Assembly: GCA_021292105.1 (NCBI GenBank)
Contig: CM037868.1
Location: forward strand, 36,476,876 to 36,540,875
Length of the DNA: 64,000 nt
Direction: 5' to 3'
Origin: Anadara kagoshimensis
Taxonomy: Eukaryota; Mollusca; Bivalvia; Arcoida; Arcidae
The notes below the pieces were generated by a model. The model was given only the letters and a program-made list of their open reading frames with translations, had not been told where the DNA came from and searched no databases. Positions 1,626 to 49,130 of the stretch are shown piece after piece (the first letter of the stretch is position 1; the number at the start of each line of letters is the position of its first letter). Both the position numbers and the translations under genes were made by a program.

Positions 1626-2037
1626 CCAATTTCGTGAATTTTATGAAATAAAGTATTAAAATAAGCACGTGACAAGTACTTAATCTTTATTTCATAAAAA
1701 TAACAAAAATTATTAGCAAATGTCGAATGTACTTTTTAAAACTTTATTTCATAAAGAAGTTAAAAACTAGCACATGACACAAGTATACTGTCGAATTATA
1801 TTTTAAAGTTTAAGATCAAGTTTTACATTCATACATAACGGTAATGTGTAACTCAGGAAGCCTTTTCAAAAATATTTTTATAATTTGGTATTTTATTTAA
1901 ACCTATTAAAATCATTATCCTATATTTTATTCAACAAAAGCCATGTATTTGTTTAGATCAGAACGTAAGCAAGTGTCGTCATGAAATGAAATAAGAATCA
2001 TTTCAAATTTAAGGATAGGCTGTACAAATAAACTTCG

Positions 2038-2041
<4 letters not shown>

Positions 2042-2080
<39 letters not shown>

Positions 2081-2342
2081 ACGTTTGCCAGTACAAGCGC
2101 TTGAAAAATGTCGATGGTTTTCTCTTAGTACTTTGGTTTTCTCGCCTAACTCGAACAGATGACCTCGACTGAATAAATATAACGTAAAACACAAACACCC
2201 CCTTCTCTCTCTCTCTCTCTCTCTTTTGTAAGAATGTTTGTCATTTTGCTGTGTTTTTCTTTGTATACTATAGTTATTTCATCCACCGCTCTAGAACGAC
2301 AGACTCGATTGAATGAAAGAATACAAACTGAGACGTAAAGCA

Positions 2343-2373
<31 letters not shown>
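2042..2373. repeat. Three (CT)n microsatellites
   Basis: Pure CT runs at 2042-2079, 2204-2225 and 2345-2373, all in the same strand orientation. The Arg-Glu-repeat reading frames over them are artefacts. Confidence 0.95.
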
Positions 2374-2376
<3 letters not shown>

Positions 2377-2379
2377 TTC

Positions 2380-3200
2380 GACATCGTCCTTTCTTTCTTT
2401 GTCATATCTTATGCAATGTTTATTACAACTTTTATTTAATACAATCAAGACTATTTATTTCTAGCTTATTTGAGAAGTAATTCTTTAACGTCATATTTGT
2501 AAATATCACTTGGAAACTATATAAATATTTTGACTTTAAAATAGGTTTTTAATTCATTTTTCATATAAACTTTCACAAATAAACGTTGATTGTTGTTATT
2601 ACATGGGTTTTTAATTTCACTGAAGTAGCGTGTTTACTTTTAAACAAGGGGGTTGTATTTCTTTTGCCGTTTGTTTAAAACGTTAGTCAAATAGTGCACC
2701 TCACAACTCAATTCAATGTTACCTCAAAATTCAAATCAAACATTTCATAAAATGTTGAGGGTTGTAATAAATCTGATACTCTGAGTTTCTAAACGATTGT
2801 ATTTTAGCCACTACAGAGAATGAACGTTCCAACGAGACTAACTAGGATTGTGCAGGTTTTAGACTGAGAAAGTTTGTCATTTTACGTTCTGAACGATTTA
2901 CCTAATATTGCTTTTGAATTTGTAATGCTCTTCCAATTGTACATGTATATTACATATTTGACCTAAACATTATGCCATCCTTTGCTTGTATTGCTTTTTC
3001 CTTCTTGTTTGTATATTATATATGTTCTCTTCTTTTTTCACCATTTCTGTCAAATAGTATTACTTTTGTTCCACATGTTATTAATTGTATATGCAGTTGT
3101 GGGAGACTGATTAATATAAGAATTTAATTCTTGTTTCAGAATCCCAGCTTATATTTTGTAATCTTTAATTTTGTGAAATTATATTCATTTAATAAATATT
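2380..3200. other. No gene seen
   Basis: AT-rich single-copy-looking DNA with short stop-filled frames. No splice-bounded coding segment, SINE or long tandem repeat was recognised. Confidence 0.5.
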
Positions 3201-3204
3201 GTTT

Positions 3205-3320
3205 AAACTAAAGTTTGTCAGTTCACTTGCTGAAGGTCGAAGGCTTTATAATCCCAGAACTTGACTGACTGTCTCGATATAAGTGAAAGTATCATGACTG
3301 GAGCGTAAAATAACCATGAC
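3205..3320 (+). mobile_element. SINE-2 3' part (shared tail)
   Basis: Contains TTTGTCAGTTCACTTGCTGA and the tail CTCGATATAAGTGAAAGTAT...GACTGGAGCGTAAAATAACC, the same tail as the full SINE-2 copy near 36838. Confidence 0.65.
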
Positions 3321-3479
3321 AACGCCTCCTACTTCTCCTTTATGACACGCCTGTCACGACAAGGGACATCATGCGAAGGATAGGTGAAGATTGGCTCGAG
3401 CAATACGGAGGACCACGCCACGGGGCATCATCCGAAGGGTGGGAGTACGACACAAGATAAAAATTGCCTCGGGCACCAT

Positions 3480-3610
3480 CAGGTCTACAGTAACACGGAC
3501 ATAATTCAAAGAATATCAGGCATAATTTGTCTGGAGTAACATCGAGGGTTTGAACTCACAACCCCAACTTGCGAAACTAAGTCATGCTCGCCCATGTGTT
3601 ACACAACTTT
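3480..3610 (-). mobile_element. tRNA-like SINE head remnant
   Basis: On the minus strand, CATGGGCGAGCATGACTTAG is followed by GTGAGTTCAAACCCTCG, matching A-box and B-box spacing of a tRNA-derived head. The family is not identified. Confidence 0.35.
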
Positions 3611-3852
3611 GGAATTAATGAACTGGATTCAAGTCCTTGATGAAATATTAAACATTGAAGAATAATGGACCATAGTGTTATTAAAATTATTGATTTTACA
3701 TTATAATCTTGTTGTGTATGTCATAGTGGCGTGTTAATACAGAGTACATTGTACTTTCTTTGTCTATCCCTGAGGAATAAAGATTCTATCTTGTTCTGGG
3801 AATCTCCTATCTAAGGTATACTTCAAGTTTATTTAGCTTTTGTTTTGGGGCA

Positions 3853-4155
3853 CCACTGCGGTAGCTCAGTTGGTGGAGTGCTCTCTCCGTATGTGGGAGG
3901 TCGTGGGTTCGAACCCCAGTCAGGGTCTGATCAAGATTTGAAAAAAAATAGGTAGTGTAATTCTTTTACAAAGAACTCGGCATTTACAAATGAAAGTCAC
4001 GGAACCTTCGGAAGAAGCCTTAAACCCCGATGTCCCGTGCCACGACAGGTGTGGCCCTATACTGAGCACACTGCAACTTCGCCTTTAGTTGGTGACGTCT
4101 CAATATAAGTGAAATATTCTTGACTGTGACGTAAAATCTCCATTCAGTCAATAAA
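3853..4155 (+). mobile_element. tRNA-derived SINE-1 copy
   Basis: Starts CCACTGCGGTAGCTCAGTTGG, with a B box GGGTTCGAACCCC, then the family body (GAAAGTCACGGAACCTTCGG) and the tail CTCAATATAAGTGAAATATT. It is a SINE, not a tRNA gene, because the tRNA-like part continues directly into the family body. Confidence 0.9.
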
Positions 4156-39619: not shown

Positions 39620-40343
39620 TTTGTATCTAGACAATGAGAGGCAATTATCTGTAAGTGTGGACTTTAGGGCCCCAAACCCACACACAGGGATAAGGGCTGA
39701 GTTAATATTCTGGTTGGCATTATGAGAGGTCTAGTACATTGATCAGGGTTTGACACACAAGATAAAAATATTTATCATTATAGAGGGATGCATTAATCTG
39801 TAAGTGTGCACTTTAGGGTCCTAACCCACACACAGGGATAAGGGCTAAGTTAATATTCTGGTTGGCATAGTCATTATATATTTTGATTTAATGACAGTAC
39901 ATTGATCTCGTTTATGGCTTGGAAGAGAAGAAATATTTATCATCATCACTCGTAGAGAGATGCAAGTGTGTACTTTAGAGTCCCAGTCCACATACAGGGA
40001 TAAGGGCAGACTTTATATTCTGGTTGGCATTACATATTTTAATTCAGTGAGAGATCATCTCATCTCTTGCTTATGCCTTTACCCGTGACATCATTAATTG
40101 GCTGTTCCAGCAAGTGGAATTGCATGCCGTACACGACAGTGTTTTAATTTATCTCACAATTCAAAAAAAAAAAAAAAGAAAGATTTTCAAAAATTGCGAA
40201 TGTAAATATAACCATTGAACTGTCTAAAATGGTGTTTATAGTGCTATAACTTCCATTGCTGTGCAAAACAATTTTTTGATTCAGTGAGACTTTCACATTG
40301 ATCTGGTTTATAGCTCACAAGAGAAGAAATATTTATCTTCATC
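39620..40343. repeat. ~170-bp tandem repeat array, interrupted at 40344
   Basis: Units contain ACATTGATC, GAAATATTTATCATCATC, AGAGAGATGCA, GTGCACTTTAGGGTCCCAAC and CACAGGGATAAGGGCTGA. About three and a half units precede the large insertion; one follows (43107-43290). Confidence 0.85.
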
Positions 40344-41144
40344 ATAGACACAGTGTATGAACTGTACGCAAAAAGGTAGCTACTGTTCGTCGAAGCGAGA
40401 AGAAGGTGTATCGGGAGACACGAGGTTGTTGATTATCTATCTTTGTAGCTCAATTTTAATGAATTTAGTTTATCCCTTTTATTTAATCCATCTTCACTAT
40501 ATAAAGCTTTAGTGGTAGCCATATGCTCTCAGAAAAGTGTCAACTTATATAATAAATATGATGATGAACATCATCAAACGCCGAGCCGTGGGCTTCTCAC
40601 TTCTAGTTAAATTATGTAAAATACGTATTATTTCACATTGTAAGTTCCATTATCAGTACCTATATGTAGGAAAATATTCTTAGATTCCCTAAACCATGTA
40701 CAGAATGTTACAAACTCGTATTTACACTGAAAAAGCAAGTTTTCCTTCCGTCGTCGAAAGTTAGAACTGTACCGGTAGTTTTCAACATCTGTATTGTTTC
40801 TGTACCGGTAGCTACTGTTCTCTTCCACGTCATCCATGCGAGTTAGATGGAATTTTCAGTTTGATACTAGAAATTTTTGTAATTCAATTATAAATTATAA
40901 ATCATGCTTTTCTATTGAAGCAAAATATGCTATGGACAATATTAAAGACCAATAGCCCCTTAATTATAGTACATTTTGCAATTGCATTAAAATATATCGC
41001 ATACTGTAGCATGTTTTGACAATTTATTACTCAAATTTCCATATTGTAAGAACTAAGGGGGTGATAGCTATAATATAGAAATAATATTAAACGTAAGCTA
41101 CTATTCGCAACGAGAAAAAGATTATAACCCTATGTGCGTGAGAT

Positions 41145-42145
41145 TTGCTAGTGTGTTTACTATCAGTTATTAGCAAGGAATTTAGCTGTATAGTCATTGC
41201 AAGAATTAAGACAGGAGTGGACAAGAGACTTGGGAAGGAACATGCAGGATTTAGACCAGGGAGAGTAACAACAGAGCACCCTGAGAAAAATACTGGAACA
41301 AGCAAATTAATTCAGAACTCCAATGTACACATACTTTATGGACTTTGAAAAGGCATTCGACTCGGTGCACAGGAAGAGCCTTTGGACGATAACGAAGAGC
41401 CATGGGATTCCAACCAAAATCACTAATGCTATAAGAGGGACGTATGAGTGTTCTGTTCTGTCATTGAAGAAAATGAAACATCAGAGTGGTTCGCTATTAA
41501 AAGTGGTGTAAAACAGGGATGTGTAATGTCAGGGTTTCGTTCTACTAGTTATAAATTGGATGATAAAGAAAACAACAAATAGAGTGAGAAGAGAAATAAG
41601 TAGTGACTTTACAACATTATTGTTAGGTCTTGGGTTTGCGGAAGATATAGCACTTTTATCCTCCAAATTCTAAGACCTGAATGATAAGACTAGGAAAACG
41701 ACAAGAGGCATCAAGGATAGGGCTTAAATTAAATTCAAAGAAATAGACTTAGAAGGATTTGGAACATCAAAAATATTGGAAAAATTACAAAGATGCACCT
41801 ATTTAAGACCTTAGTAGGACCAGTATTGTTTTATGAAAGTAAAACGTGGAAAAGAACGAAGAAAGATGAACACCTCTTACAAACGGCTTCCGAACATATT
41901 GCCTCAGAAGGATACTAAGAATAAGATGGCAACAGAAAATACCTAGTGAAAAAAATATTGAAAACAGCTAGACTTAACAACATAAGCTATTAGATCAGGA
42001 AAAGAAAGTGGAACTGACTCGGACACATACTAACGAAAGAGGGAACAAATGACTGAAAGACAACACTAGGGTGGGAGCCAGAGGGAAAAAAGGAAAGACC
42101 TAAGTCCATACGGAGGAGAACAACGAAAAAGGAAAGAAACGCATG
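41145..42145 (+). pseudogene. Dead LINE (non-LTR) reverse transcriptase fragment
   Basis: Across several shifted frames: HAGFRPGRVTTEH, then MDFEKAFDSVHRKSLW (RT block with the conserved D), GIPTKITNAIRGTYE, SGVKQGC, a decayed (F/Y)xDD-box region reading FAEDIALLS, and near the end LRRILRI and WEPEGKKRKDLSPYGGEQRK-like tail words. Stops and frameshifts are many. Endonuclease domain and 5' part absent; clade not determined. It lies within the CACAGTG-ended element. Confidence 0.85.
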
Positions 42146-42458
42146 AAAGTATTTCACTTATATCAAGAAATCTCTAGCTATAGGCGAAGGTGCATAAATT
42201 TTGTCTGCGCGTTGCACTGATAACAATTTACAGCAGGGTTCTTTATCGCACCAAGCCTACCATGACACGGCACCTCGTTTATTTTAAGTGTCCATCCGAA
42301 AGAACCGTGACTTTCATTTCGTAATGCCGAGTGCTTGGCGAAAAAAAAACCCAGTCACTTCCCACTTCCAATTTTTTGGTCAGACCTGGTCGGGGTTCGA
42401 AGCAACGACCTCCCACTTACGGAGCGAGCACTCTACCAACTAAGCTACCGCAGGGGTT
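42146..42458 (-). mobile_element. SINE-1 copy joined to the LINE fragment
   Basis: TATTTCACTTATATCAAGAA (tail, shortened) to minus GGTAGCTTAGTTGGTAGAGT (head). The last ~35 bp of the tail are missing at the LINE junction. Confidence 0.88.
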
Positions 42459-43106
42459 ATGTTTAAAAGGAAGTGGTGCCTGTATTACCATAATACCTAT
42501 ACAACTAATTAGATAAAATCATATGGTAGCATAATAAGCATAAAAGTACTAAAAATCTCTGACTGGAAAAAGAGATATTTCCCCAGTATCCCAGAGAGAC
42601 TGAAGTTAAAGTATCACAATAAAAACTACCGGTACAGTGTTTCTTTTACTAAAACTTCACTACCGGTACAGACAAAATATAAACTACCGGTACAGTAACA
42701 TCTTGTCAGTCATGTCGTTTGAATCAATATTTTGAATGTTTCTGTGCCAAAGTAGATTTTGTAACTATATAGACTGATTGAAAAAGGTTTGTTTTCATCA
42801 TGTATTTAAAAATTCTCGGATATTTTCGATTAAATGAGCATAAATCTACATTTTAGATAGGTCCAGCGTTGCTCAAATACGTGTTCATGACTGTTTTAAT
42901 GGAATATTTAATTTATTTGGAGATTCTAAAACATACAAATACGCCCAAGAAGAAGATAGAGAACAACTGCTTATTTACCGTATTTGATTTCGAGCTGTTA
43001 TGTACGCAACAAGAAAATAAGAAACAATTTACTCGTTGACCTCATTGTCTCTCGCTTCGCCGAACAGTAGCTACCTTTTTGCGTACAGTTCCGTTCATAC
43101 ACTGTG

Positions 43107-43290
43107 ATAGAGAGATGCAATGATCTGTTATACTTATAGTCAATGTGTACACTTTAGGCCCCCAACCAACCCACACACAGGGATAAGGGTAGACTTTATA
43201 TTCATGTTTGATTGAGTGAATGCTCTAGTACATTGATTCAGTTTTATACTGCTCACAGGAGAAATATTTATCATCATCCTACACATGTTT
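43107..43290. repeat. Right-hand unit of the interrupted tandem array
   Basis: AGAGAGATGCAATGATCTG, CACTTTAGGCCCCCAACC, CACAGGGATAAGGGTAGAC and GAAATATTTATCATCATCC. Confidence 0.8.
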
Positions 43291-48394: not shown

Positions 48395-49130
48395 GACTTT
48401 GATGTTACTGACCTAATATGTCTTGTCACTGACCTACTATTGTCTTATGTCACATTGACCTCTTGTGTGTCATCAGTGTCACAGTGACCTACTATTGTCT
48501 TCTGTCACATTCACCTACTATTGTCTTATGTCACAATGACCTCTGGTTTGTCATCAGTGTCACAGGACCTACTATTGCTTATGTCACATTGACCTCTGGT
48601 TTGTCATCTGTGTCACAGTGACCTACTTTTGTCTTATGTCAAAGTGACTGGGTTTGTCCTCGGTGTCACATTGACATACTTTGTCTTATGTCACATTTAC
48701 CTCTGGTTTGTCATCAGTGTCACAGTGATCTTCTATTGTCTTATGTCACATTGACCTCTGGTTTGTCATCAGTGTCACAGTGACCTACTATTGTCTTATG
48801 TCACATTGACCTATGGTTTGCCATCAGTGTCACAGTGACCTACTTTTGTCTTATGTCAAAGTGACTGGGTTTGTCCTCGGTGTCACATTGACATACTTTG
48901 TCTTATGTCATAGCGACCTCAAGTTTGTCCTCAGTATCACAGTGACCTACTTTTGTCTTATGTCACAGTGACCTTGGGTTTGTTATCAGTGTCACAGTGA
49001 CCTACTTTGGCTTATGTCACTGTGGCCTCGAGTTTGTCCTCAGCGTCACAGTGATCTCGGGTTTGTTCTCGGTGTCACAGTGACCTAGATTGTATCACAA
49101 TGACCTAATTAATTTTTTACCTCATTGACT
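48395..49130. repeat. ~60-bp minisatellite rich in TGACCT
   Basis: About twelve units built from TGTCACAGTGACCTACTATT, GTCTTATGTCACATTGACCTC and GGTTTGTCATCAG. Each unit carries one or two TGACCT hexamers. Confidence 0.92.

Follow-up and report, generated by a model that had tools for sequence, protein, structure and literature searches.

A young non-autonomous transposon family with CACAGTG ends in a bivalve genome, and a 12/17 spacer asymmetry confined to one of its complete copies

Can a mobile element have ends that resemble V(D)J recombination signals, with two spacers of different length? The question is raised by an element of 2758 bp (36% GC) located at positions 40349-43106 of the window, i.e., the whole stretch of 64,000 nucleotides that was analysed. 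Its 5' terminus is CACAGTG and its 3' terminus is CACTGTG, so that both ends read CACAGTG inward, as stated in the preliminary description of this DNA, which had also correctly placed a 5-bp target-site duplication, ATAGA, on either side (40344..40348 and 43107..43111). The left terminal inverted repeat (40349..40400, plus strand) is 52 bp long with a 5-bp deletion, and the right one (43050..43106, minus strand) has the 57-bp form of the family described below; aligned with each other, they show a single substitution and a single 5-bp gap. The left end of the window copy is CACAGTG-12-GCAAAAAGG and the right end is CACAGTG-17-GCAAAAAGG, and so the reported heptamer to A-block spacings of 12 and 17 bp are true of this copy. 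The A-block GCAAAAAGG matches the nonamer ACAAAAACC at 6 of 9 positions, a likeness that had already been called partial and that falls short of the nonamer of a V(D)J signal. In addition, the inverted repeat extends for 24 bases beyond this block with one mismatch; therefore, conservation does not single out the 'nonamer'.

The element is inserted at ATAGA within a degenerate tandem array (39655..40344), the units of which resume at about 43112-43279. The claim that other units of the array display the empty site was examined by joining both flanks with a single ATAGA and aligning the product to neighbouring units. Two alignments span the junction, one with array positions 39736-39947 (155 of 237 columns, 65%) and one with 39878-40025 (123 of 179 columns, 69%), and a third, at 74%, stops short of it. 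The claim holds, although because the array is degenerate, the empty site is demonstrated at the level of 65-69% identity only. Another tandem array, at 48448-49086 and with a unit that contains TGTCACAGTGACCT, accounts for 11 of the 20 CACAGTG heptamers on the two strands of the window and looks unrelated to the element. A Pfam scan of nine window frames for host genes found nothing at 0.01.

The left 137 bp of the window copy were used as a query against the host genome (G000, 1.115 Gb) and gave 679 candidates, 40 of which were scored. Relative to the window copy, 37 of these 40 left ends have a net five extra bases and one has six; the two that lack extra bases are the window copy itself and L014. 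We read the copies ranked 2 to 21 among the 40 (L009-L028), a sample that is biased towards the window copy because it was chosen by similarity rank. All of them except L014, which has lost its right end, retain both ends. With the window copy, this makes 20 complete copies of 2369-4947 bp, and the family is mostly 2.4-3.4 kb. CACAGTG is present at both ends of all 20, which were picked by their likeness to the window copy. The search for further copies that the preliminary description proposed thus uncovered a well-defined, young and abundant non-autonomous family with exact RSS heptamers.

The same copies decide the matter of the spacers. The 37-bp end with the 17-bp spacing has 454 exact sites in the genome (231 forward and 223 reverse; a reversed-pattern control gave 0), although genome-wide counts may contain some duplicates because two haplotypes of one locus, described below, were probably retained in the assembly. 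The 32-bp end with the 12-bp spacing has one exact site, the window copy, and up to three mismatches add only the left end of L014, which has two further changes. In every one of the 20 complete copies the right end has the 17-bp spacing. So does the left end in 19 of them, the sole exception being the window copy; since the other 19 are all 17/17, the inverted repeats of the family are symmetric and 57 bp long. The five bases missing from the window copy fall between two GAAC repeats, and therefore a single deletion accounts for them. The idea that the element is genuinely asymmetric and RSS-like, with a 12-bp spacer paired to a 17-bp one, could appeal to the window copy, the only one that has both, and to the 12-bp left end of L014. 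Against two such ends, however, stand the 454 exact 17-bp ends, the 19 symmetric copies and the position of the deletion, and we consider this explanation extremely improbable. Helix geometry also counts against it: 12 and 17 bp differ by half a turn, unlike the full turn that separates 12 and 23. The 12/17 pair is a lesion in the window copy and not a rule of the family, and 12/17 asymmetry as an RSS-like feature is refuted in this genome. Of the element that was originally proposed, a DNA transposon with CACWRTG ends, 5-bp duplications and no visible transposase stands; its asymmetric ends do not, and the 12- and 17-bp spacings proved neither constant nor paired.

The other copies behave as expected from the preliminary description with regard to their first bases and their duplications. 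The target duplication is exactly 5 bp in 19 of the 20 complete copies, and the exception, L019, has the 6-bp ATAGTA instead. The flanking 5-mers are identical within a locus in 19 of 20 cases and between loci in 7 of 380 comparisons; consequently, the duplications are not due to chance. The 19 exact duplications have a GC content of 22%, which is low against a background of 36-34% (binomial 0.003-0.008); 14 of them begin with A and 10 end with T. L019 and L028 have one difference in 3108 aligned sites plus five gap columns, while their flanks and duplications differ. Two nearly identical copies at different loci imply that the family moved recently. Of the first 100 of the 454 end sites, 26 are unpaired and the others form 37 inverted pairs, and a broader end pattern has 551 sites in the genome, nearly all of which are the family end with A.

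The complete copies also have a common interior, mostly 91-98% identical per aligned block (L023 and L025 each have one block at 89-90%). Two subterminal CTGTACCGGTAG repeats are present on the left side (40766..40811, plus strand) and three, inverted relative to these, on the right side (42622..42696, minus strand). This 2 + 3 arrangement occurs in 18 of the 20 complete copies; the others are 2 + 2 and 1 + 3. Between the repeats is a degraded reverse-transcriptase fragment with broken frames (41142..41918, plus strand). In a scan of ten frames of the window copy, its matches to RVT_1 (E 5.7e-4) and DUF6451 (E 5e-5) stayed below the curated cut-offs. The fragment is shared by the other family copies and is partial in L021 and L024 owing to deletions. 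A dispersed repeat (42150..42457) is present in all 20 complete copies, and the window contains nine further matches to it that span 100 bp or more; two of these may be pieces of one copy. By eye it resembles a SINE; ARAGORN reported no tRNA anywhere in the window. Frames in the 20 complete copies reach at most 129 amino acids, and a comparison of the copies with two RAG1-like proteins of the genome gave no match at E below 1.

No transposase frame was seen among the unspliced frames of the fetched copies. Length was used to pick autonomous candidates: within the first 100 of the 454 end sites, the four inverted pairs of greatest length (3.8-8.9 kb) proved to be the same element with extra sequence, which we read as nested insertions; two of the four hold reverse-transcriptase frames. 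L035, L037, L038 and L039 are family copies with about 0.9-5.8 kb of extra sequence that we read as nested insertions, and reverse-transcriptase frames lie in those of L035, whose RVT_1 match is under its cut-off, and of L037. The longer frames in L035, L037 and L041 are either reverse transcriptase or unassigned. We also looked for another family with the same ends. A pattern that allows a divergent next base, GTAGCTACTGTTCGNCGAAGCGAGAY, has three sites, and the loci L040 and L041 obtained with it both belong to the same family on reading. CACAGTGTATGAACGGAACTGTAC followed by any base except G has 13 sites with no pairing among the 13, of which only L041 was read, and CACAGTGTATGAACGG followed by any base except A has three sites compared with one in each of two controls. 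No other family was seen in these end-pattern searches, L040 and L041 being the sites that were read. Thus, neither an autonomous copy with a Transib or RAG1-like core between such ends, for which the preliminary description had advised a search, nor any Transib-type transposase tied to them, was found among the sites read (unspliced frames, first 100 of 454 end sites), and for this reason membership in the Transib/RAG-like group is no more than probable.

RAG1-like proteins are nevertheless encoded in this genome. A RAG1 family model had one match above its cut-off (30.8 bits) and none in 14 control genomes. The matching protein, P0001, is an 832-aa frame (minus strand, positions 1162-3390 of L029; C8:56669253-56671748). 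Its last 72 or so residues recur at 31 places with 72-76% identity, in short frames that belong to a set of 63 matches (scored: 60 of 235 candidates), which suggests that its carrier element has many truncated relatives. A second RAG1-like protein, of 715 aa, occurs as three identical intact frames and one copy split over two frames; its loci include C4:28143230-28145374, C8:38664014-38666158 and C10:19176107-19178250, and in L032, where it lies at 1890-4034 on the minus strand, a 173-aa frame precedes it. As the three frames are identical, the unit was probably amplified recently, and it looks like a RAG1-related mobile element. Taken alone, the 715-aa protein had no match among Pfam models at 0.1 or among solved structures at 10. 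A profile of three RAG1-like proteins, however, can be aligned along 343 of its positions with mouse RAG1 (E 3e-6), and it weakly matches the RAG1L chain 6b40 (E 4.5e-4), which we take to be from amphioxus. The invariant D and E of the profile align with a D and an E of RAG1 that are presumably catalytic; the alignment does not extend to the first D. A third type of RAG1-like locus is found both in L042 (C29, a 214-kb contig) and in L043 (the chromosome-size C13) with 99.8% identity over about 4.9 kb. The two are probably haplotypes retained in the assembly, and for this reason their comparison gave no boundary for the unit; nor did comparing L044 with L045 yield a usable boundary of the P0001 unit.

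Could one of these proteins, of the 715-aa, P0001 or L042 type, move the CACAGTG ends? Their relationship to RAG1 and the probable recent amplification of the 715-aa unit speak for it, and one family end (C6:30867367-30867444) and a broken RAG1-like fragment (C6:30867555-30868535) are 111 bp apart. That fragment is outside the element, however, and the family copy may simply have inserted into a dead RAG1-like gene. The stretches around the three RAG1-like loci, which may miss the ends of the elements, contain no 57-bp end and no inverted CACWRTG pair with an exact 5-bp duplication; the sequence from which two copies of the 715-aa unit become alike has no CAC at its start; and every end among the sites listed (C1 to C4:38.7 Mb) is more than 40 kb from the nearest RAG1-like match. 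The proteins were found but could not be tied to the 57-bp ends, and we consider this partnership very unlikely.

What class of transposase would then act on the family? According to the available portions of the sources, Transib, RAGL and RAG are characterised by CAC ends together with 5-bp duplications (PMC7204232, PMC4411706, PMC8355894, PMC8289069). These two features of the family favour a Transib/RAG-like transposase that would act in trans, and we regard this class as probable. On the other hand, ProtoRAG, Transib and RAG have GC-biased targets according to the accessible part of PMC8289069, and the family, with duplications of 22% GC (n = 19), departs from this tendency. The AT-rich targets, together with RAG1-like genes that lack such ends, leave the class unproved. 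The AT-rich targets, often with A first and T last, speak for a rival reading in which the transposase belongs to a different, perhaps undescribed, cut-and-paste superfamily that happens to combine CAC ends and 5-bp staggering with such targets. It could also be said for this alternative that the RAG1 family model detected no Transib transposase, its single match being P0001, which has no such ends in the sequence read around it. Ginger2 termini differ from CACAGTG ends. In duplication length Ginger2 alone comes near, with 4 or 5 bp in the part of PMC10045372 at hand, among the superfamilies compared, which were less than a full survey. Moreover, the first seven bases of the family equal the RSS heptamer consensus, CACAGTG, as given in the available text of PMC8289069, and 5-bp duplications are typical of Transib/RAGL in the corresponding parts of PMC7204232 and PMC4411706. 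Another superfamily is therefore unlikely, but by no means negligible. An undescribed RAG1/Transib branch with CACAGTG, a symmetric 17-bp spacing, AT-rich A...T targets and a divergent or separate transposase, possibly a RAG1-like protein of this genome, seems improbable. For our part, we prefer the Transib/RAG-like reading.

Transib ends begin with a heptamer of the form CAC[AT][AG]TG. The family matches this end and the 5-bp duplication of the Transib N families as they are described, and its inverted repeats are symmetric, as in most Transibs (PMC8289069 and PMC8355894, in the parts available). It differs in its A-block spacing of 17 bp, compared with 20-22 or 12/23 in the accessible portion of PMC8355894, in its AT-rich targets and in that no linked Transib transposase was found. 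With the RAGL transposons (ProtoRAG and the protostome RAG1L-RAG2L elements), it has the CAC start and the 5-bp duplications in common, but judged by frame length (at most 129 aa in 20 complete copies), it lacks convergent RAG1L/RAG2L genes. The protostome RAGL end consensus given in the available part of PMC7204232, CACTWMCAAACKTYKBB, has AAA at positions 8-10, where the family has TAT, and ProtoRAG ends, 27/31 in the excerpt of PMC8289069, contrast with the symmetric ends of the family. Compared with V(D)J signals, the heptamer equals the consensus in that same excerpt, whereas the nonamer matches at 6 of 9 positions, the spacers are 17/17 with no 12/23 pairing, and the family consists of dispersed copies flanked by target duplications.

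Taken together, we think it probable that this is a non-autonomous cut-and-paste family with symmetric 57-bp terminal inverted repeats of the form CACAGTG-17 bp-GCAAAAAGG. A Transib/RAG-like transposase made elsewhere would recognise both ends and join the element to cuts staggered by 5 bp, and such cuts lead to 5-bp target duplications. An ancestral copy would have carried the reverse-transcriptase fragment and the dispersed repeat as passengers and would have been amplified to hundreds of ends, some of them very recently. The window copy or its donor lost 5 bp on the left, for which a deletion between the two GAAC repeats is the simplest account. The symmetric ends and their number, the 5-bp duplications, the common interior, the nearly identical copies at separate loci and the 5-bp deletion are observed directly, whereas the recent movement, the action in trans and the Transib/RAG-like class of the transposase are deduced.

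In conclusion, what looked like a natural example of RSS-like asymmetric spacers is explained, in this genome, by a 5-bp deletion in one complete copy. The feature that remains is the combination of exact RSS heptamers with a fixed distance between heptamer and A-block. The family offers a set of substrates for two questions: which of the animal's transposases cleaves CACAGTG ends, and what makes its targets AT-rich.
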